Origin: Chloroflexota bacterium
GTDB taxonomy: Bacteria > Chloroflexota > Anaerolineae > J102
Assembly (NCBI GenBank): GCA_013151415.1
Contig: JAADII010000160.1
Span: 1-34,732 of the forward strand
DNA: 34,732 nt
Direction: 5' to 3'
The translations under genes were made by a program, and so were the position numbers. The notes beneath the pieces were generated by a model. That model was not told the DNA's origin. It was given only the letters and a program-made list of their open reading frames with translations, and did no database searches. How positions within the stretch are numbered: position 1 is the stretch's first letter; every line of letters begins with the position of its first letter. Below are positions 24,197 through 34,732 of the stretch, in pieces.

Positions 24197-25129
24197 CTAT
24201 CCGCCGTCGTCGTGGCCGTCGCCGCCCATGTCTCCGGACCCGACCAACTCCTGCGCCTGCAATAGCGCGGCTTCGGCCGCGGACCTGTCTCCGGCCTCGA
24301 TGGCTTCGAGAGCCTCGTTCAACAGGGTCAGCACCTCGCCCGAGGCCGCCTGGGTCGCTTCGCCCAGCGCGTGCTCCGCTGCGTGCAAATCCCCTTCTTC
24401 CAAGGCGTGCAGAGCCTCGGTGATGGCGGCCTGCGGTCCCGGCAACTCCACCGTTTCTCCCCGCTCCCAGACTCGCAAAAGCGCCACAATATCTCTCACC
24501 TGCTTGGGCGATAATACGGTTCCCCAGGTGGGCATGCCCTGCGAAGGCCGTCCATCTGTGATGGTGTCGATGTACCACTCGTCATCGAATTGGGCCAATC
24601 TTTCGGGATTGTTGAGCGCGGACGCCAGATCGGTTCCCTGGCCGTTTTCGCCATGACAGACAATACAAGTGCTATTATAAATCACCAGGCCCTCGACCGG
24701 ATCGCCCGCCATAGCTTCGGCTTCGCGATCGGGCGCATCTGGCTCCCAACTACGAATGAAGGCCACCAATTGACGCACTTGCTCATCGGTGAAAGGGCCG
24801 CCATGCACCTGACTCCAGGCCGGCATTTCGGTGCTGGGCACGCCCGAGCTGATCAGGCTAAATATGGTCTCGTCGCTGGTATTGGCCAGGAACTTCTTAT
24901 CGTTCAGGGCCGGGGCGTCTACGCCTTCCCCTTGTTCGCCGTGACAACTGGCGCAGTTTTGGGCGTAGAGCGAGCGCCCGACCGTCACCGCGATGAGCAC
25001 GTCTCGCTTTTCGTCGGCCGCGATGCGCTGCGGTTCGCGGCGAATATACAACTCGAACGACACCAGGATGGCGATGGTCAACACCAGGGCCGCCATGATG
25101 AAACGCGAATAATCTTCTCGGGCGCGCAT
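24197..25129 (-). CDS. Membrane-anchored di-heme cytochrome c of the bc complex
   Basis: A 310-residue protein with one N-terminal membrane anchor (about 11-28) and two cytochrome c domains outside the membrane. Heme 1 binds at CASCH (Cys59, Cys62, His63) with Met102 in EMPAW as the likely axial ligand. Heme 2 binds at CIVCH (Cys155, Cys158, His159) with Met199 in GMPTW. The layout recalls the di-heme cytochrome c of heliobacterial and related Rieske/cyt b complexes. A C-terminal extension (about 235-300) is Ala/Glu-rich and has two similar 21-residue helical repeats (238-258 and 272-292), ending in a Gly/Asp/His tail. It lies 9 nt after the Rieske gene, with AGGAGG before the ATG, and is the last gene of the complex. 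Confidence 0.93.
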   Translation of the reverse strand: MRAREDYSRFIMAALVLTIAILVSFELYIRREPQRIAADEKRDVLIAVTVGRSLYAQNCASCHGEQGEGVDAPALNDKKFLANTSDETIFSLISSGVPSTEMPAWSQVHGGPFTDEQVRQLVAFIRSWEPDAPDREAEAMAGDPVEGLVIYNSTCIVCHGENGQGTDLASALNNPERLAQFDDEWYIDTITDGRPSQGMPTWGTVLSPKQVRDIVALLRVWERGETVELPGPQAAITEALHALEEGDLHAAEHALGEATQAASGEVLTLLNEALEAIEAGDRSAAEAALLQAQELVGSGDMGGDGHDDGG

Positions 25130-25138
25130 CTCAACCTC

Positions 25139-25627
25139 CTAAGCGTAGGTTTTTTGTGATGGGTCGAACTCGGCGCGAATGATGGGCGCGCTTGTATCGA
25201 CGATGACCACGCCATCCTCGATTTTGATGGGGAAAAGGTCGAGAGGGCGAGGCGCGGGGCCGCTCACCACTTCGCCGGTGGTGGTGAAGATGGAATTGTG
25301 GCAGGGGCAGTGAAACCGACCTTCATCCTCCCGCCAGGGGACCGTGCAACCCAGGTGGGTGCAACGATGCCACAGGGCCAGCATGCCTCCATCCTCCAGC
25401 GTGGAGATGTAGAAACGCCCTTTTCGCACATGGCTGATGGTTCCGGGCTGGAATTCCTCCACTCGACCCGCCACCACCTCAGAGCCAAAGCCTCCTTCTT
25501 CGACGCGCGGTTTCATAAACCCAAACAGGGCCGAACCGGCCTGACCGAAAAGGGCCAGCAGGGCCACGCCCCAGGCTCCCAAAAGAAATCGCCGTCGCGA
25601 CACGGTGTTATCTTCTTGAAGTTGCAT
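25139..25627 (-). CDS. Rieske [2Fe-2S] protein of the cytochrome bc complex
   Basis: A 162-residue Rieske protein. The N-terminus has a twin-arginine signal (SRRRFLLGAW, 10-19) followed by a hydrophobic helix that anchors it in the membrane. The cluster motifs are CTHLGC (Cys89, His91, Cys94) and CPCHNS (Cys107, Cys109, His110). The four ligands are Cys89, His91, Cys107 and His110; Cys94 and Cys109 form the stabilising disulfide. The later GPAPRPL is the proline loop. It transfers electrons from quinol at the cytochrome b Qo site to the di-heme cytochrome c. A GGAGG ribosome binding site sits 7 nt before the ATG. Confidence 0.95.
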   Translation of the reverse strand: MQLQEDNTVSRRRFLLGAWGVALLALFGQAGSALFGFMKPRVEEGGFGSEVVAGRVEEFQPGTISHVRKGRFYISTLEDGGMLALWHRCTHLGCTVPWREDEGRFHCPCHNSIFTTTGEVVSGPAPRPLDLFPIKIEDGVVIVDTSAPIIRAEFDPSQKTYA

Positions 25628-25649
25628 GAGATTGCCTCCACTTCATCAA

Positions 25650-26417
25650 TCAAAAGTCGTTCCAGGGATTGTAACCATCAGGCATTTGCCAGGGGAGATA
25701 CATCTCGAATCCCGGCCCCCGAAACAGAAAGCCGCTGATGGTGAGCACAACGGCCGAAGCCAGCATCACAGTGAATAAAGCGATCATGATTTCACGCACC
25801 GAGGCTCCTTTCCGCCAAAGGACTGCAACAGGCAGCAACACGATCAACGCCAATATCAGCGATGGCAACAGCCACTGAGCAACCCAGGCCGGAGCCGCGC
25901 CTCGCAACAACTCCCTCATGCTGAAGGCGTTGTCCAGCACGATGAAAGCGGTCATGGCGACAACGGCGTAAAGGGCCGTCCATCCTGCGATCCGTTTGCC
26001 TCGCCTGGTCGAAAACCAGACGCCGGCATGTTCGCGAGAGTAATCTAAGTAGGGCAAAGCCACCAGAAAGAGAACCAGAATACCGGGGATGACGATGCCG
26101 GCCAGGGTGGGATGCATGTGCTCCAGCAGCTCTTGCAACCCGACAAAATACCAGGGCGCTTTGGCCGGATCGGTCGTCACCTGAGGATTCGCGATCGCGT
26201 CGAGCGGCGCTTGCTTGACCAGAGAAAAGAAAAAGAGCGCCAGGGTCACTCCCAACAGAATGAGAATTTCCCACAGCAGCACCACGGGAAAGGAAAACAC
26301 GGTCTTTTCCGGTCCCTTGCCCACCATGGGGCTTTCTCCGCGCATCATCTCCACCAGCGCGTACGATTTGCCGGTTCCTTTTGGAAAAATCTCTTCGTTC
26401 ATGGGTGCGTCGTTCAT
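25650..26417 (-). CDS. Cytochrome b C-terminal domain protein (b6f subunit IV-like)
   Basis: A 255-residue protein corresponding to the C-terminal half of cytochrome b. It has an unusual soluble N-terminus of about 40 residues, then membrane helices. The quinol-oxidation motif PEWY appears as APWY at 87-90 in the context DPAKAPWYFVGLQELLEH, a form common in non-photosynthetic split complexes. Additional helices beyond the three of plant subunit IV are predicted (about five in all). The protein ends in a soluble MPDGYNPWNDF. The ATG at 26417 is chosen because GGAGG lies 8 nt upstream; a TTG start at 26432 would overlap that ribosome binding site. It follows the b6-like gene by 36 nt. Confidence 0.9.
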   Translation of the reverse strand: MNDAPMNEEIFPKGTGKSYALVEMMRGESPMVGKGPEKTVFSFPVVLLWEILILLGVTLALFFFSLVKQAPLDAIANPQVTTDPAKAPWYFVGLQELLEHMHPTLAGIVIPGILVLFLVALPYLDYSREHAGVWFSTRRGKRIAGWTALYAVVAMTAFIVLDNAFSMRELLRGAAPAWVAQWLLPSLILALIVLLPVAVLWRKGASVREIMIALFTVMLASAVVLTISGFLFRGPGFEMYLPWQMPDGYNPWNDF

Positions 26418-26453
26418 CGTCGTTTCCTCCAAAATCTTATGCCTCGGCCGCGC

Positions 26454-27194
26454 TTACTCGGCGTCGGGAACATCATTGGCCGCCAATCCGCCATCTTTAC
26501 GCACTCGCCATAGGTGCACCGATATCAATAGCACCAAAGAGAGGGGCAAAAGGGCGATATGCAATGTGTAGAAACGAATGAGCGTGTCCTGACCGACTTC
26601 GGTCCCGCCCAACAGAATCTCGCGCATGACCGGCCCGGCCACAGGCGCATAACCGGCGATGTTCGCGCCCACAGTGATGGCCCAATAAGAAAGTTGATCC
26701 CAGGGCAACAGGTAGCCGGTGAAGCTGGCGCCCAGGGTGAGAAGCAGCAGCACCACGCCAATGACCCAATTGAACTCACGCGGCGGCTTATAGGCCCCGG
26801 TGTAAAATACGCGCGCCATGTGCAAGATCACCACCAGCACCATGCCGTGCGCGGCCCAGCGATGCATATTGCGCGTAAACTGGCCCAGAGGCACCGAGAG
26901 CTGAATCTCCTTCATCGTCGGATACGCGCGTTCGACCGACGGCACATAATAAAACATGAGCAGGATGCCGGTGAAGACCAAGACGCTGTATAAAACAGTG
27001 GCCATAATGCCCAGGCCGAACGTGTAGGTCCAGCGCAGGCTCTTATGACTCACCTTGACCGGATGAAGGTGGAAGAAGATGTTGCTGGTCATGGTCAGCG
27101 AACGATCCAGGGGATTATCCGGCCAGCCATGCCGAAAAACCGAACGCCACACACGCGAATCGGTCAAACGAGTTAAGGGTTTCGACTGGGCCAT
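26454..27194 (-). CDS. Cytochrome b N-terminal domain protein (b6-like)
   Basis: A 246-residue four-helix di-heme cytochrome b. Heme ligands are His111 and His125 ([20 protein letters not shown]) and His212 and His227 ([20 protein letters not shown]). The second pair is spaced HX14H, as in cytochrome b6 rather than mitochondrial cytochrome b (HX13H). [13 protein letters not shown] is the conserved Qo-side segment. The protein contains no cysteine at all, so the covalent heme ci/cn of b6f-type complexes cannot be attached in the usual way. The start at 27194 follows AAGGAGGAAGCTT; an in-frame codon 33 nt upstream has no support. Confidence 0.93.
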
Positions 27195-27243
27195 AAGCTT
27201 CCTCCTTGGTTCAGGTTGCTTCCACACACGCGAACGCCGGGCG

Positions 27244-27274
27244 GGTGAGCCGCACCGAGCGAGCGCGACTCACC
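27244..27274 (-). promoter_or_regulatory. Intercistronic hairpin between the cupredoxin and cytochrome b genes
   Basis: GGTGAG (27244-27249) pairs with CTCACC (27269-27274), and inner bases extend this to a stem of about 13 bp with three G-T pairs and a tiny loop. No T-run follows on the minus strand, so an mRNA-processing or stability element is more likely than a terminator. The rest of the 130-nt gap (27195-27324) shows no convincing promoter. Confidence 0.45.
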
Positions 27275-27324
27275 GCTGCAATCCAGGCGCGTCAATATAG
27301 AACCTCTGCTCACTAGCTTTGGAT

Positions 27325-27765
27325 TCAGTTTGTAACGGTCAGCGTGCCCACCATGCCCGCCTGAGCGTGGCCGGGAACCGCGCAGATGAAGATGTAATCG
27401 CCCGGTTCGGTGGGCGCGGTGAAGGTCTCGGTGCTGCTCTGGCCCGCCGCGACTTCGTGCATTTCCATGACCAGCATCTCGTGCCCTTCCTCTTCACTGG
27501 CGCCAACGACATCGTCGGGCAATACGCCTTTGTTCAAAATCACAAAGGAGTGAGGCGCCGAACCGGTGTTCTTGAACGTGATCTTGACCTCTTCACCGGC
27601 TTTGACCTTGAGGACGTCGGGCTGGAAAGTGAATTCATCTTTGACGGAAACTTCGAAAGCATCGCCTTGGCCCGCGTCTCCGCCGCCGCTAGCGCCTCCA
27701 CAAGCGGCCAGCAGCAGAGCCAAAGCCAGGACGAAGAGTGCAATAAGGGCATGTTTGGACTTCAT
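27325..27765 (-). CDS. Blue-copper (cupredoxin) lipoprotein
   Basis: A 146-residue small copper protein anchored as a lipoprotein, with signal ending LLLAACGG (lipidated Cys22). The type 1 copper ligands are all visible: His72 (APHSFVI), Cys128 (YIFICAVPGH), His133 and Met138 (HAQAGM). It would carry electrons on the outer face of the membrane, for instance from the bc complex to a terminal oxidase or other acceptor. The ATG overlaps the stop of the flavoprotein gene (ATGA) and is preceded by AAGGAG. A much longer frame upstream lies inside that gene and is ignored. Plastocyanin/auracyanin-like relatives are the nearest comparison; a sulfocyanin-like role cannot be excluded. Confidence 0.92.
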   Translation of the reverse strand: MKSKHALIALFVLALALLLAACGGASGGGDAGQGDAFEVSVKDEFTFQPDVLKVKAGEEVKITFKNTGSAPHSFVILNKGVLPDDVVGASEEEGHEMLVMEMHEVAAGQSSTETFTAPTEPGDYIFICAVPGHAQAGMVGTLTVTN

Positions 27766-29720
27766 GAGAGAGTCTCCTTGGGTTCGAAAATGACTTCTTC
27801 CGTGAAACGGAAGGTTTCCATGGTGATGGCGTCGGTGGGACAGCGAGCCGCGCACAGCGCGCAACGGATGCAGCGCGCGGGGTCCAGCAACATGGCCGAA
27901 GCGGTCGGCCAATCCGCGGTGCGTTGTTCGATCAAGGCCGCGACCGACAAATCGCCCTCCACCTCGGTTATGGGAACGAGCTTGAGACAATCGGTGGGGC
28001 AGACATCAACACAGCCATTGCATAAAATGCAGAGATCGCCGTCGAAAATGGGATTGATGGTGCAGATGAGGCAACGAGCCGCCTGTTCTTTGGCCACGCT
28101 CTCCTCATATCCGACTTCGACGATCGAAACGCCGATGCGGCGATCGACCGGCAGCGTTTCGGGCATCTGGCGTTGCCAACGCAGATAATTTCGCACCGGC
28201 CCGACTTCGGCATATTCTTTTTTGGGAATGGGCGTGAAAAAGCCCTTGCGCACCAGACGAGGCTCGACATCCTGAAGATAGGCGTGGATGCTGCGGGCCG
28301 CGCGCTGGCCATCGGCCACTGCGTTGATGATCAGGCGAGGGCCAAAGGCCACATCGCCGCCGGCATAGACGCCGGCCGCGGTCGTGGCCAACGTCTTTCT
28401 ATCCACCACCAGCCCTCCTCGCGGGTTCAGCTCCAATCCGTCCTCTGGCCGCACCCACTCGAGTTCGGACGACTGGCCAATGGCCACGATCACGCTATCG
28501 CATTCCCAGACGGTCTCTGTGCCCGGAATGAGCTGGGGATTGAAGCGGCCATTTTCGTCGAACGCTCGGGCCACATTGAGCGTCTCGACGCCCATCGCGC
28601 GTCCGCGTTCGCCTATGATGCGCTTGGGAGCCAGATGATTGTGGATGATGATCCCTTCCTCTTCGGCCTCGATGATCTCCAGAGGATCGGCCAACATCTC
28701 ATCTCGATCCTCCACCACCAGACAGTGCACCTCCTGAGTCGCGCCCAGGCGCACAGCCGTGCGGGCCACATCCAGGGCCATCTCCAGATCGCCGCCTGAC
28801 TGGCGAGGAGAACCCAGGCGAGCAGCCGTGCGCGCCACATCCATGGCCACATTGCCGCCGCCAATGACGATCACCTTGCGACCCAGATCGAGATTGTAGC
28901 CTCCCAGGTTCACATTGATGAGGAAATCCACTGCGCGCAACACGCCATCCAGTTCTTCGCCCTCCACATTCAAATTGCGGCTGCGATACGCGCCAATGCC
29001 AATGAACACGGCGTCGAAATCGCGACGTAGATCCGCCAGCGTGAAATCGCGGCCCAGCGCTTGATTGAGCTTGAGCGTGGGGCCGAGCGCCAAAATCGCC
29101 TGAATTTCCAGATCGATGACCTCGCGCGGCAAACGATATTCGGGCACGCCCATGCGCAACATGCCCCCGGCCACAGACGCAGCTTCGAAGACGATCACCT
29201 CATGTCCGAGCAGGGCCAGATCGTGCGCGCAGGTTAGCCCGGCCGGCCCCGCGCCGATGATGGCCACGCGTTTCCCCGTCGCGTCGGGCCGGGTCGTCTG
29301 GCCGCGCTTGTGAGCCGCGCGCATCACGCTGCGGCTGTGGGGCAAGATGGAATTGCCCAGATCGAAACCGTTGGTTGAGCCCACATATGTGGGCCAGGAG
29401 GGCGGCTGTTGGGGCGCGCCCGTCTCGCCCAGGAAAACGCCGTAACGGTCGTTCACGAATCGTTTGAGCGCGCGAATCGCGATGGGCGCATCGATTTTGC
29501 CCCGCCGACACGCGGCTTCGCAAGGCGCGCCGCACACCCACCCGCAGGTGGAAGCAAAGGGGTTGGTTTCGCGTGCGATCAAATACGCGCGTTCATATTC
29601 GCCCTGAGCGATGGCCGTCACATATCCGCGAGCGTCGGTGCGCACCGGACAGGCGAATTGACATGCAACCGTTCTTTCGTAGAAAGTCAGGTCGGGAAAA
29701 TAGACCGGATACTTGGCCAT
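27762..29720 (-). CDS. GltD-like FAD/NAD(P) oxidoreductase with two ferredoxin-type domains
   Basis: A 652-residue flavoprotein. An N-terminal Fe-S domain like glutamate synthase small subunit carries Cys20, 24, 59, 63, 67 and 71. The FAD-binding loop is GAGPAG (156-161), the NAD(P) loop is GGGNVAMD (287-294), and YAGGD (453-457) is the second FAD contact. At the C-terminus are two [4Fe-4S] ferredoxin motifs: Cys564, 567, 570, 574 with a CP ending, and Cys617, 620, 623, 627. An extra CLIC (550-553) precedes them. No glutamate synthase large subunit is nearby, so a role in NAD(P)H/ferredoxin/quinone electron transfer is more likely. The ATG at 29720 follows GAGGTGA with 8-nt spacing; a GTG at 29732 would abut the predicted transcription start. 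It overlaps the cupredoxin gene. Confidence 0.88.
   Translation of the reverse strand: MAKYPVYFPDLTFYERTVACQFACPVRTDARGYVTAIAQGEYERAYLIARETNPFASTCGWVCGAPCEAACRRGKIDAPIAIRALKRFVNDRYGVFLGETGAPQQPPSWPTYVGSTNGFDLGNSILPHSRSVMRAAHKRGQTTRPDATGKRVAIIGAGPAGLTCAHDLALLGHEVIVFEAASVAGGMLRMGVPEYRLPREVIDLEIQAILALGPTLKLNQALGRDFTLADLRRDFDAVFIGIGAYRSRNLNVEGEELDGVLRAVDFLINVNLGGYNLDLGRKVIVIGGGNVAMDVARTAARLGSPRQSGGDLEMALDVARTAVRLGATQEVHCLVVEDRDEMLADPLEIIEAEEEGIIIHNHLAPKRIIGERGRAMGVETLNVARAFDENGRFNPQLIPGTETVWECDSVIVAIGQSSELEWVRPEDGLELNPRGGLVVDRKTLATTAAGVYAGGDVAFGPRLIINAVADGQRAARSIHAYLQDVEPRLVRKGFFTPIPKKEYAEVGPVRNYLRWQRQMPETLPVDRRIGVSIVEVGYEESVAKEQAARCLICTINPIFDGDLCILCNGCVDVCPTDCLKLVPITEVEGDLSVAALIEQRTADWPTASAMLLDPARCIRCALCAARCPTDAITMETFRFTEEVIFEPKETLS
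28744..28850 (-). repeat. Near-duplicate 38-bp segments inside the flavoprotein gene
   Basis: 28744-28781 and 28813-28850 match at 33 of 38 positions with a 69-bp (23-codon) period. They encode MALDVARTAVRLG and VAMDVARTAARLG, that is the helix after the NAD(P) loop is written twice in tandem. The linker between them, SPRQSGGDLE, is polar. Confidence 0.85.
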
Positions 29721-29744
29721 GAGATCGTTCACCTCACTACAGCC

Positions 29745-29776
29745 AGTGTACCCGATAAAGGTCTAAATCAGGTCTA
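29745..29776 (-). promoter_or_regulatory. Activator-type promoter with OmpR/PhoB-style direct repeats
   Basis: On the minus strand: TAGACCT (29776-29770), GATT, TAGACCT (29765-29759), then after 8 bp the -10 TACACT (29750-29745). The two perfect 7-bp direct repeats with 4-bp spacing (11-bp period) are the classical arrangement of PhoB/OmpR-family binding boxes, and they occupy the place of a -35 element. The start would be near 29738, giving an 18-nt leader with GAGGTGA before the ATG at 29720. The gene just upstream encodes an OmpR/PhoB-type regulator. Confidence 0.65.
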
Positions 29777-29805
29777 GACGACGTTTCTGTTTTGTCTGAA
29801 AAGGA

Positions 29806-30486
29806 TCACTCCAACCGATAGCCAAAACCCCTCTGGGTGATGATGTGCCTGGGATCGCCGGGATCGGTTTCGATCTTTTGTCGCAAAGACCAGATGTAAT
29901 GCTTGACATGCTGAACCTCGCCGGCATATTCCGGCCCCCACACCTCCATCAACAACTGTTCGGTGGAAACCGTGCGATGTGGACGACGAGCGAGCAGCGC
30001 CAGTAAGCGATATTCGGTTGGCGTCAGATCGACAGGCTCGCCGTTCAGGGTGACGCGCTGCTGCTCCAAATCCACCATCAGGTCATCGCTAACGAACTGA
30101 CGTCCGGGCGGGTTGTCATGGCGAGCGCGGGCCAACACGGCTCCGATGCGGGCGGTTAGCTCGGCAAAGGAAAAGGGTTTGGTGACGTAATCGTCCACGC
30201 CCAGGCGAAAACCGCGCAGTTTATCCACCTCTTGGCCCTTGGCCGTGAGCATGATAATGGGCGTGGTCCTGGCCTGGCGAAGCCTGCGACACACCTCCCA
30301 GCCGTCCATGCTCGGCATCATCACGTCCAACACCACCAGGTCCACCTCGATCTCATCGGCCAACCGCAGGCCCTCCCGACCATTGGTCGCCAGGGCCACG
30401 TCAAAACCGACCGTTTTCAGGTGCTCGGCCAAAAGCTCCACCAAAATGGCGTCGTCGTCGATGATCAAGATATGCCCATCATGCAT
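29806..30486 (-). CDS. OmpR/PhoB-family response regulator
   Basis: A 226-residue two-domain regulator. The receiver domain (1-120) has acidic Asp11/Asp12, phospho-acceptor Asp54 in VVLDVMMP, Thr81 and Lys103 in YVTKPFS. The C-terminal winged-helix DNA-binding domain (about 130-226) reads EPVDLTPTEYRLLALLARRP, then VSTEQLLMEVWG and RQKIETDPGDPRHIITQRGFGYRLE. Its ATG overlaps the stop of the histidine kinase gene by 8 nt, so the pair is co-translated and is almost certainly a cognate two-component system. The next gene begins 85 nt downstream behind direct repeats of OmpR/PhoB type, the most likely target. Confidence 0.95.
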   Translation of the reverse strand: MHDGHILIIDDDAILVELLAEHLKTVGFDVALATNGREGLRLADEIEVDLVVLDVMMPSMDGWEVCRRLRQARTTPIIMLTAKGQEVDKLRGFRLGVDDYVTKPFSFAELTARIGAVLARARHDNPPGRQFVSDDLMVDLEQQRVTLNGEPVDLTPTEYRLLALLARRPHRTVSTEQLLMEVWGPEYAGEVQHVKHYIWSLRQKIETDPGDPRHIITQRGFGYRLE

Positions 30487-31912
30487 GTTGACGCCACCAT
30501 ATAGGGAGAGCGACGGAGAAAACCGCGCCGCCTTGAGGATGATTCTCGGCCCAGACGCGGCCGTTTTGCGCCTCCATCAGACGGCGACACACATATAACC
30601 CCAGGCCATAGCCATACGCGGCTTGAGCGTCGCTGTTGTCGGTGCGATAGAATTTTTCGAAGATGCGCTCTCGCGCCGCGGGGGGCAGGCCCGGCCCCTG
30701 ATCGCGCACCTCGATGATCACCTCGGCGTCATTGGCCCGAGCATCCACGAAGATGGGCGCGCCCGCGGGCGTATACTTATCCGCGTTGTCGAGCAGGTTG
30801 GCCAAGACCTCCATCAATCGATCGCGATCCGCGTAAATCAGTGGAAGCCCCGGTCTTTCGGCCAGATAAATGGGGCGTTCGCCCAGCCGCGAACGCATTT
30901 GCGCCACCACCTGTCGGGCCACCGGAAACGCGGAGATCGGCTCCAGATGCACCGCCAACTCGCCCGCCTCGATGCGATTGGCGTCGAGCACATCTTGCAC
31001 CAAACGGTCCAGGCGAGCAACCTGCTGATCGATGATGGCGCACATTCGGGCGCAGGTGGGGCTGGTCGAGCAGCAAGCGTTTTGGATGCGCTCCACCGCG
31101 CCGCGAATGTTGGTGAGCGGCGCGCGTATCTGGTGGGAGACCAGAGAGATGAACTCGGCGCGCGTTTGGTCCAACTTCTGTAGTTCGGCGTTGGCCCGCG
31201 CCAGCTCCTCCACTTTTTCGGCCAGCTCGCGGGTGCGGGCGGCCACTTGTTGGTTGAGGCTGGCGTTCAGTTGCTCGATCTCGGCCTGGCGACGTTTGCG
31301 GTTGGTGATGTCGCGCAGAATGAGAGAGATGCCCAGGGGTTCGCCGTTGTCAGCCGTAATATGGGTGGCCGTCAGTTCAACGATGATGGGACGACGAGCC
31401 GCGGTGAGGATGGTGGTTTCATGCCCGCGCACAAAACCAGAGCGCCGCGTGGAGCGGGCCAACCATTGCGCCTCGATAGCCGCGGCCCCGCCCCCGCCAA
31501 AGATGTCGGCCAGCGAATGGCCGCGCGCCTCCTGAGCCGTATAGCCCAACAGCAGCGCCGCACCGCGATTCCATGATTCGATGCGCCCCTCAGGGTCCAG
31601 GCTGATGATGGCGTCGGCCGAGGCTTCGGTAATGGACGCCAGCCAGGAATCCTTGATGCGGGCGGATTGCTCGGCTTGCTCCTTTTCGTTCAACCAATGG
31701 CCCACCAATGTGAGACTCCAGAAAGCGAGCAACGGCCCGGTCAGACCAAAAAAGAGGACTTCCGCACTGAAATGAAGCGACGCATTTACATTGTCGTGCA
31801 ACCAGCGCGCGAAACCCAGTTGATACACAACCACCAACGCGGCAAAAGCAATGGGCATGACCCAGCGAAGGACGGCCACGCGTTGTTTGAGACCGTTGTC
31901 GAATTGCACCAT
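30479..31912 (-). CDS. PAS-domain sensor histidine kinase with Cys cluster
   Basis: A 477-residue membrane kinase. Two membrane helices (about 13-33 and 48-72) leave a short external loop. A PAS domain (about 90-204), which contains no cysteine, and a coiled coil (about 204-250) precede the HisKA helix with phospho-acceptor His260 (LVSHQIRAPLTNIRGA). Right after the first HisKA helix is a four-cysteine group, Cys280, 281, 287 and 291 (ACCSTSPTCARMC). The HATPase domain has the N box NLLDNADKYTP, G1 DQGPGLP, F box FEKFYR and G2 GYGLGLYVCRR. The small external loop and the cytoplasmic PAS and Cys groups point to internal redox or membrane-state sensing (inference). The start at 31912 follows AAGGTG; 18 extra upstream codons have no support. 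Confidence 0.93.
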   Translation of the reverse strand: MVQFDNGLKQRVAVLRWVMPIAFAALVVVYQLGFARWLHDNVNASLHFSAEVLFFGLTGPLLAFWSLTLVGHWLNEKEQAEQSARIKDSWLASITEASADAIISLDPEGRIESWNRGAALLLGYTAQEARGHSLADIFGGGGAAAIEAQWLARSTRRSGFVRGHETTILTAARRPIIVELTATHITADNGEPLGISLILRDITNRKRRQAEIEQLNASLNQQVAARTRELAEKVEELARANAELQKLDQTRAEFISLVSHQIRAPLTNIRGAVERIQNACCSTSPTCARMCAIIDQQVARLDRLVQDVLDANRIEAGELAVHLEPISAFPVARQVVAQMRSRLGERPIYLAERPGLPLIYADRDRLMEVLANLLDNADKYTPAGAPIFVDARANDAEVIIEVRDQGPGLPPAARERIFEKFYRTDNSDAQAAYGYGLGLYVCRRLMEAQNGRVWAENHPQGGAVFSVALPIWWRQHA

Positions 31913-32039
31913 GGTTGCACCTTGAATGAAAAAACGACGATTTGTGAATTCCGCGGCGGCGCGCATCTTCTATTCCGTTCAGGTCAAGCCCCTCATCTCC
32001 TCCAGCTCGAATGTTGAACGATGGAACCCTGGTCGGCGT

Positions 32040-33002: not shown

Positions 33003-34235
33003 TCAGGGAGCAATGGTGATTTCGCCTGAGAACGACTCATGAGGAATGGAATGGGGTTGCGTGCTAGTAAGAACGTCGTCGCTCCAGGTAAGAGGCGTGG
33101 TTCCGATGCGAACAGGGCGAAATTTAATGCTGGCGAGCGTCCCCGAACCGGAAGCGCCTTGTGCGTCGCCATAAGTGAAGGCGCCCACCGTGATGACGCC
33201 TTGTGCATTATCGATGGTGAAAGGAAGGAACACGACTTGACGTCCGGTCGTCGCCAAGAAGGGGCCAAGATAGGCGCTTTGGGCCTCCACGATGGTGGGT
33301 TCGAAATGCAATGTGAACTGGTAAGCCCCCAGATCGCTGACATTCTCGACGGCAATGTCGAGAACGAAGTCTCCCCCAGCCAAACTATGGGTGGCGGAAA
33401 TAGGTTGAGCGAAAAGCGTTGTTCCGGGCAAAGGCGTGGGCGTAAGCGTGGGCGAGGGTGTGATGGTGGGCGTGGGCGTAAACGTGGGCATGGATGTGGA
33501 GGTGGGCGTAGGCGTAAACGTGGGCGAGGGTGTAATAGTCGGCGAAGGCGAGGGTGTGATCGGAGCCTTCTGCAACGTGACGCTCCCTTCAAGACCAGAG
33601 GCGGGAATCAGCGAGCCGTGTGTGTTTGTCAATCGAACCTTCGACCAGCTCAACGACGCGACGCCCGCTTTGAGAGGCCGGAAATGAATGATGGCGAGCA
33701 CGCCTCTCCCACTCGCGCCGGCCGCATCTCCCGAAGAAAGTGCGCCAAACTCCAGCACGCCCTTTGCGTTGTCGATGCTGGGTCCAATGATGGCGATAGA
33801 GCGTCCCGTCTCGGTTAACATAGGGCCGGCTTCCACATCCAACGCCTGGAGCAAGCCGGGATCGTAATGGAGCGTAAACCGAAAATCGCTCAAATCGACG
33901 ACGTCGCGTACAACGATGTCCAACGTAAACTCGCTTTCGGCCACACTGTGCACCGCATCGAGAGGCGACGGCGCCAGTTGCGGCTGAACAAAGCGTTGAT
34001 TTTGAATGAAGGGGAAAAAATGCGCTCGGTTCTGCGCTTCGGGCTGAAAATGCGTTTGGGCGCGAGGCGTGGACAAACTCTCGACCTGAGCCGCAGTGCG
34101 ATCGGGCGCGTAGAAATAGGAGAATGCGCGCGCGCGAATAACGAACGAGAGGGCCAAAAGCGCGACCATGAAAACAAGCGTTTTCCCATAATAGAAACGT
34201 CGCGTTCGCCAAGGACGAAGGTGGCGTCGAGTCAT
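33003..34235 (-). CDS. Membrane-anchored protein with two cohesin-like domains and a Thr/Pro linker
   Basis: A 410-residue exported protein. A basic start (MTRRHLRPWRTRRFYYGK) leads into one hydrophobic helix (about 18-34), a signal anchor or signal peptide. Two related beta-sandwich domains follow (about 90-222 and 272-410). Both show the cohesin-type pattern: LDIVV-LSDFRFTLHYDP in the first and LDIAVENVSDLGAYQFTLHF in the second, then IDNAxGV, SGxGxLAxIxFRP and a closing LxWSxxxLT. Between them lies a linker of about 48 residues of Thr, Pro and Ser. Cohesins bind dockerins, and the neighbouring upstream gene ends in a dockerin. The start at 34235 follows AGGA and is chosen because the basic/hydrophobic signal begins there. 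Confidence 0.8.
   Translation of the reverse strand: MTRRHLRPWRTRRFYYGKTLVFMVALLALSFVIRARAFSYFYAPDRTAAQVESLSTPRAQTHFQPEAQNRAHFFPFIQNQRFVQPQLAPSPLDAVHSVAESEFTLDIVVRDVVDLSDFRFTLHYDPGLLQALDVEAGPMLTETGRSIAIIGPSIDNAKGVLEFGALSSGDAAGASGRGVLAIIHFRPLKAGVASLSWSKVRLTNTHGSLIPASGLEGSVTLQKAPITPSPSPTITPSPTFTPTPTSTSMPTFTPTPTITPSPTLTPTPLPGTTLFAQPISATHSLAGGDFVLDIAVENVSDLGAYQFTLHFEPTIVEAQSAYLGPFLATTGRQVVFLPFTIDNAQGVITVGAFTYGDAQGASGSGTLASIKFRPVRIGTTPLTWSDDVLTSTQPHSIPHESFSGEITIAP
33428..33560 (-). repeat. Coding minisatellite for the Thr/Pro linker
   Basis: On the plus strand the words GTGGGCGT, GCGTAAACGTGGGC and GTGGGCGAGGGTGT recur (for example GTGGGCGAGGGTGT at 33448-33461 and 33519-33532). They encode the TPTPT/TPSPT linker of the cohesin-like protein. 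All units keep the reading frame. Confidence 0.75.
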
Positions 34236-34293
34236 ATTCCTAAACCTCGTTGAAGAGAAAGTGCCCGGTGTGACTTCATGCTTCTGACAACTC

Positions 34294-34732
34294 TCACAAC
34301 GCATCTCGCCAGGCTGCAACCACCCGCATGATGTCCATGACATCGATCACGCAATCGCCGTCGAAATCGTAAGCATCGTTGTATTGCGCGTCGCCGCAGC
34401 GTCGATTCCAGGCATTGGCCACCAGCATGACATCGACGATGTCGATGACCCCGCTGTTATCAACATCGAAGTTCACCACGCGGACTGTGATCCACCCATC
34501 GTCGGAAAGAGCGCCGTCGGTGATGGTGTAATTGAAACCATCCACGCCAATGAAATTGGGATCAGGGATGTAAGTGATCTTGCGGTCGGGCACGGGAATG
34601 GGTTGATTAGGCTGAAGATGAACAGCGCCATGGGCCGCGTCTCCCACCGAACTCACATTGATATTATCGCCGTCGATGTCTGTATCATTGGTCAGCGCGC
34701 TGAACGTGATGGGTTGATTCCTGCCGGTCACT
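34294..34732 (-). CDS. C-terminal part of a dockerin-bearing surface protein (cut by the window edge)
   Basis: Partial; the N-terminus lies beyond the right edge. The visible 145 or so residues start in a cadherin-like/VCBS-type repeat (NDTDIDGDNINVSSVGDAAH, then ITYIPDPNFIGVDGFNYTIT). The protein ends in a dockerin with two calcium-binding F-hand repeats: DVDNSGVIDIVDVMLVANAW and DFDGDCVIDVMDIMRVVAAW. Two cysteines (in RRCGDA and DGDCVID) could form a disulfide. The gene stops 58 nt before the cohesin-like gene on the same strand, so the two are likely co-transcribed and may interact outside the cell. Confidence 0.85.
   Translation of the reverse strand, partial: VTGRNQPITFSALTNDTDIDGDNINVSSVGDAAHGAVHLQPNQPIPVPDRKITYIPDPNFIGVDGFNYTITDGALSDDGWITVRVVNFDVDNSGVIDIVDVMLVANAWNRRCGDAQYNDAYDFDGDCVIDVMDIMRVVAAWRDAL

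Follow-up and report, generated by a model that had tools for sequence, protein, structure and literature searches.

A four-half-site array of OmpR/PhoB type as the probable promoter element of a Rieske/cytochrome b operon in Anaerolineae

How is a respiratory operon controlled when it lies directly behind the genes for a two-component system? The question is raised by a stretch of 34,732 nucleotides (the window) on a contig of a Chloroflexota bacterium of the class Anaerolineae. On its minus strand a GltD-like NAD(P)/FAD flavoprotein with a Fer4_20 domain and two C-terminal 4Fe-4S motifs is encoded by the first gene of the operon (27762..29720), and is followed by a cupredoxin lipoprotein that overlaps the flavoprotein stop in an ATGA (27325..27765), the N-terminal, b6-like half of cytochrome b (26454..27227), its C-terminal, subunit IV-like half (25650..26432), a Rieske iron-sulfur protein (25139..25627) and a di-haem cytochrome c (24197..25129). 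Judged by its predicted proteins, the operon specifies a Rieske/cytochrome b complex that has a pyridine-nucleotide oxidoreductase to itself. The best NCBIfam matches of the two cytochrome b halves are ExtP (276.6, cut-off 290) and ExtQ (40.8, cut-off 150), cytochromes of selenite/tellurite operons, and both scores stay below the cut-off. Upstream, again on the minus strand, lie the gene for a response regulator with receiver and winged helix (29806..30486; PF00072, PF00486) and, overlapping it by 8 bp, the gene for a sensor histidine kinase (30479..31966), in which domain search and orthologues delimit an N-terminal membrane segment with a short loop, PAS, HisKA and HATPase domains. A preliminary description of this DNA had placed an OmpR/PhoB-family regulator just upstream of the operon, and the Pfam domains found (Response_reg and Trans_reg_C) bear this out.

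Between the regulator stop codon and the flavoprotein start, direct reading of minus strand 29776-29745 gives TAGACCT-GATT-TAGACCT-TTATCGGG-TACACT. The two perfect TAGACCT 7-mers, with their 4-bp gap and 11-bp period, had been described before, and every coordinate and spacing proved exact: half-site b (29770..29776) is separated by GATT (29769-29766) from the promoter-proximal half-site a (29759..29765), and an 8-bp spacer, TTATCGGG (29758-29751), leads from there to the -10-like element TACACT (29745..29750), a reading that assumes sigma-70-like promoter signals in this bacterial class. The repeats were also said to occupy the -35 position, and indeed the best TTGACA-like hexamer in the window, with spacers of 15-19 bp, matches at no more than 3/6 positions. 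The TACACT element itself resembles a half-site TACACCT, but it lies 15 bp from half-site a and out of phase. For the flavoprotein, the ATG at 29720, preceded at 8 nt by the ribosome-binding site GAGGTGA (29729..29735, minus strand), is a more likely start than the GTG at 29732. A search of the 4.52-Mb genome with 0 mismatches allowed finds the string TAGACCT-N4-TAGACCT at this place only. The 200-bp region ahead of the flavoprotein gene was put through 1000 dinucleotide shuffles, and not one of them equalled the repeat of the window.

The earlier description had proposed to look for the repeats in relatives that keep the order of regulator and operon. Searching 396 genomes from the class for orthologues of the flavoprotein, we found 13 loci with an orthologous kinase-regulator-operon cassette, the window's own genome (G000) included, in at least eight families (f1, f4, f12, f15, f35, f38, f39 and f45); the entries L038 and L118 are one contig (JAJRVT010000321, 26936 bases) and were tallied once. 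The regulator orthologue lies directly upstream in 12 loci (G000, G358, G303, G331, G225, G030, G010, G329, G285, G309, G301 and G168), being truncated in G168 by the contig edge, so that its last residues alone are visible. The repeats are kept in all 13 loci, as tandem (Y)ASACC(T) half-sites with an 11-bp period, the final copy (TASACCT or a near-match) standing 8 bp before a TAnnnT element, which is TACACT in 8/13. None of the 13 loci has a TTGACA-like hexamer better than 3/6 at 15-19 bp. By contrast, the box was found in 0/14 flavoprotein homologues without this regulator upstream (shuffle p >=0.15). The association of box and regulator has a Fisher probability of 5e-8 when the loci are treated as independent, which they are not, since common descent brings their effective number below 13. 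No flavoprotein orthologue was found outside the class at E<=1e-240 among 400 genomes sampled over the phylum.

Two-copy short repeats are common and the 13 loci have a common ancestry, which would suit a chance match or intergenic sequence inherited without selection. Such an origin is nevertheless hardly credible. When the string of the window itself served as query, shuffle p was <=0.007 in 12/13 loci, the exception being G301, whose array is built of CACACC variants (CACACCA-CACACCT-TACACTA-CACACCT). Moreover, in the 13 aligned loci information falls to background on both flanks of the array and outside the -10 element, even though these regions align, and the regulator proteins of the window and most loci are just 62-68% identical, so that unconstrained positions should have drifted.

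The array turned out to be longer than the pair first described. We anchored the 13 loci on the -10 element and scored the upstream registers with a half-site matrix made from a and b. The score is high at -22 (half-site c) and clearly raised at -33 (half-site d), and the mean scores at these two registers were reached by none of 20000 random placements. An AC core is present at c in 12/13 loci, at d in 13/13 and at the next in-phase register upstream in 0/13; therefore, the array terminates at half-site d. Information across the 13 loci amounts to 11.2 bits at a, 9.3 bits at b and 6.7 bits at c. In the window both distal half-sites are weak, c (29781..29787, minus strand) being degenerate, with GAAACGT where several relatives have TACACCT or CACACCT, and d (29792..29798, minus strand), CAGACAA, being the weakest of the four. 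The proximal pair thus stands as described, as part of what reads as an array of four in-phase half-sites with a consensus of about YASACCT and an 11-bp period (29798-29759). Its graded strength would fit a strong proximal dimer site accompanied by a weaker distal one.

Two genomes provide natural experiments. In the flavoprotein tree all boxes fall within one clade (support 100/99), and G196, which is nested in this clade, has the same operon without the box; a search of its 95%-complete genome at E<=1e-55 returned no orthologue of the regulator. G196 thus appears, from its position in the tree, to have lost regulator and box together. In G298 about 3.3 kb separates the operon from the regulator, which lies upstream and has the same orientation; at least two ORFs, one lipoprotein-like and one glycoside-hydrolase-like, stand between regulator and box (G298:C207, L198, 1648-4950), and the box sits at the operon. 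This latter arrangement bears on the idea that the site is an element of the 3' end of the regulator mRNA (a terminator, a stability or another RNA element) or the -35 of an alternative sigma factor. That the site directly follows the stop codon of the regulator gene in 12 loci would agree with it; however, the site of G298 has stayed with the operon and away from the regulator, and a four-fold 11-bp helical phasing is unexpected for either kind of element, which makes this explanation very improbable.

The regulator orthologues are 62-83% identical and adjoin every box except that of G298. Since the box-bearing genomes encode many OmpR-type regulators, some of them 43-55% identical to this one, the array might be bound by one of those and not by the neighbour. 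We consider this improbable, as the box tracks the presence of this particular orthologue, one co-loss included, and is essentially limited to this operon. In addition, the paralogues differ in the recognition helix: the regulators of boxed operons carry KH(Y/F)(I/V)W(S/T/A), or KQYIWT in G331, whereas the 43-55% identical paralogues of the same genomes have other helices (KRYIWY and the like) and lack a box of this kind. Within the boxed set, the regulators with W-S in the helix (G000, G358 and G298) pair with TAGACC in both proximal copies, while most of those with W-T or W-A pair with TACACC at copy a, G331 being an exception. That Ser versus Thr/Ala tracks TAGACC versus TACACC is suggestive, but the three W-S regulators form one clade (93/90).

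The limitation of the box to one operon also emerged from pattern searches. TASACC-N5-TASACCT-N8-TAnnnT occurs 11 times in the 396 genomes, 10 times at this operon and once elsewhere; the same pattern reversed, taken as a control, occurs twice, and about 3 occurrences are expected under uniform base composition. The off-operon match (G241:C217) was rejected as a second target, as the ORF downstream of it is unrelated and one such match is no more than chance would give. Other matches to TASACC-N5-TASACCT in the 13 genomes are about as frequent as controls, and those in G358:C138, G309:C239 and G010:C50 were discarded as members of a wider regulon, having no array followed at 8 bp by TAnnnT before a related gene; the same applies to the matches to the shorter pattern in the window's own genome (C128 and C137). 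Autoregulation was likewise rejected: in 7 loci, the 400 bp preceding the kinase gene contained no comparable pair of half-sites. Because the pattern is essentially confined to this operon, and neither a further target nor a box ahead of the kinase was found, the cassette looks local, with a single regulator for a single operon. A separate repeat was noticed in G000:C128 at about 1860-1937 (L142), where five tandem copies of approximately TAGACCA, spaced by 10-11 bp, immediately precede a small ORF that looks like a member of the S23/four-helix-bundle family; this is possibly the array of another regulator or a simple tandem repeat.

Altogether, we hold with a probability of about 0.87 that this segment acts as the operon's promoter and that the adjacent regulator most likely binds the four-half-site array and recruits RNA polymerase. 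As far as genome comparison reaches, it documents the co-inheritance and co-loss of array and regulator, the phase of the array, its fixed distance from the -10 element and its restriction to the operon. Binding would then be by the neighbouring regulator; the geometry makes activation likely, as opposed to repression, and by analogy with characterized members of the family the regulator is expected to bring in RNA polymerase from the array. The kinase would phosphorylate the neighbouring OmpR/PhoB-family response regulator, which would bind as head-to-tail dimers, occupying the strong proximal pair (a, b) before the weaker distal pair (c, d). With the array in place of a -35 element, RNA polymerase would be recruited at the fixed 8 bp from TACACT, in an activation of PhoB type, and transcription would start near 29738. 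The signal may be the redox or quinone state, which is suggested because the target genes are respiratory.

OmpR-family regulators can activate or repress. The array could thus serve repression, or toggle between repression and activation, with the bound regulator keeping RNA polymerase off the -35 region: it overlaps the expected position of sigma region 4, and a repressor lying across the -10/-35 region could resemble this layout. Yet a usable -35 hexamer is absent from 13/13 loci and, therefore, the promoter should require assistance. In G196 the loss of the regulator went along with that of the box and of this promoter architecture, and the 8-bp gap to the -10 is as constant in the 13 loci as in PhoB-activated promoters. 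Repression is on these grounds unlikely, and we return to activation from the array as the preferred reading.

In every feature of a PhoB/OmpR-family promoter that can be examined in DNA letters the site conforms, with head-to-tail half-sites at an 11-bp period (four in phase), a -35 replaced close to the -10 (8 bp to TAnnnT in 13/13) and a co-inherited winged-helix regulator. The preliminary description had called the repeats PhoB-box-like, which holds for the architecture and fails for the half-site sequence, which is not that of the Pho-regulon box. PhoB sites extend over the -35, with about 10 bp left between their end and a TAN3T -10 (PMC1906773, PMC3348028). Like the array, the E. coli Pho box has tandem direct repeats of 11-bp period that take over the -35 position, some 8-10 bp before TAN3T (PMC1906773, PMC3348028), and goes with a regulator of OmpR/PhoB type. 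Here, however, the half-site is YASACCT, a Rieske/cytochrome b operon is the target in place of phosphate genes, and the regulator scores 192.5 against NCBIfam PhoB, below the cut-off of 296.2, and we rejected an assignment to the Pho box of the phosphate regulon on these three counts. PhoP of Mycobacterium tuberculosis, which is among the best PDB matches of the regulator (161 bits), binds a 7-bp motif with a 4-bp spacer as a head-to-tail dimer with strict spacing (PMC4832192). This 7-bp plus 4-bp geometry is identical to that of the window array (PMC4832192), but the PhoP motif is TCACAGC, its half-sites number two against four here, and the recognition-helix residues differ.

The nearest published sequence in the literature searched is that of the cyanobacterial SphR box, in which the 8-bp repeat CTTAACCT recurs in tandem at least three times, separated by linkers of 3 bp (PMC1906773), and shares its ACCT end with the half-sites of the window (PMC1906773). 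The period is equal, but the SphR repeat has TTAACCT where the array has TASACCT, with differences at the second and third positions, and serves a phosphate regulon, so that the site was not assigned to the SphR box. As for the protein, MtrA, RegX3 and RpaB are the best-scoring relatives of the regulator, but their recognition helix is unlike and the regulator falls far short of every NCBIfam equivalog cut-off (RpaB 205 vs 330, MtrA 205 vs 300, KdpE 155 vs 325); the regulator was accordingly not taken as an MtrA, RpaB or KdpE equivalog. Within the literature searched, no motif of a Chloroflexi response regulator that has Rieske genes as target came up. The site would add a further example to the PhoB/OmpR-type promoters, one with a distinct motif and with uncommonly good support, the switch itself being of an ordinary kind. 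It offers a sequence-level regulatory rule for a respiratory chain in uncultured members of the class, and the prediction is unusually sharp, naming the regulator, the site, the number of half-sites and the single target operon, for an operon that is little studied.

The surroundings of the cassette tell something of its history. Over window positions 24197-31966 the whole cassette is 70-90% identical to contig C265 of G358 (L206), a genome of another family, and it is far closer to G358 than to G010, a genome of the same family; among the loci read through, the cupredoxin is found only in the window and G358. Because of this likeness across families and the cupredoxin common to both, the comparison points to a transfer of kinase, regulator, box and operon together as a single unit. 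A broader proposal is that of a previously undescribed, dedicated two-component switch, made up of the regulator, the four-half-site array and a kinase that in most orthologues has a Cys-x6-Cys pair in its dimerisation hairpin, which senses the redox or quinone state, controls the NAD(P)H-flavoprotein-linked Rieske/cytochrome b complex and moves as a cassette between families; we put it forward as a tentative suggestion, with the odds somewhat against it.

Some minor observations concern the kinase and the neighbourhood. The hairpin between the two HisKA helices of the kinase contains a C-x6-C pair (ACCSTSPTCARMC in the window), present in 8/10 orthologues compared, and a thiol redox switch is a possible role for it, mentioned as a lead only. 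The orthologue alignment also displays a conserved His in the short loop that joins the N-terminal membrane helices of the kinase. Finally, near the cassette, two adjoining minus-strand ORFs occupy 33003-34731; the one at 33003-34343 carries a Cohesin domain, and the ORF upstream of it reads like a dockerin or cadherin-like end.
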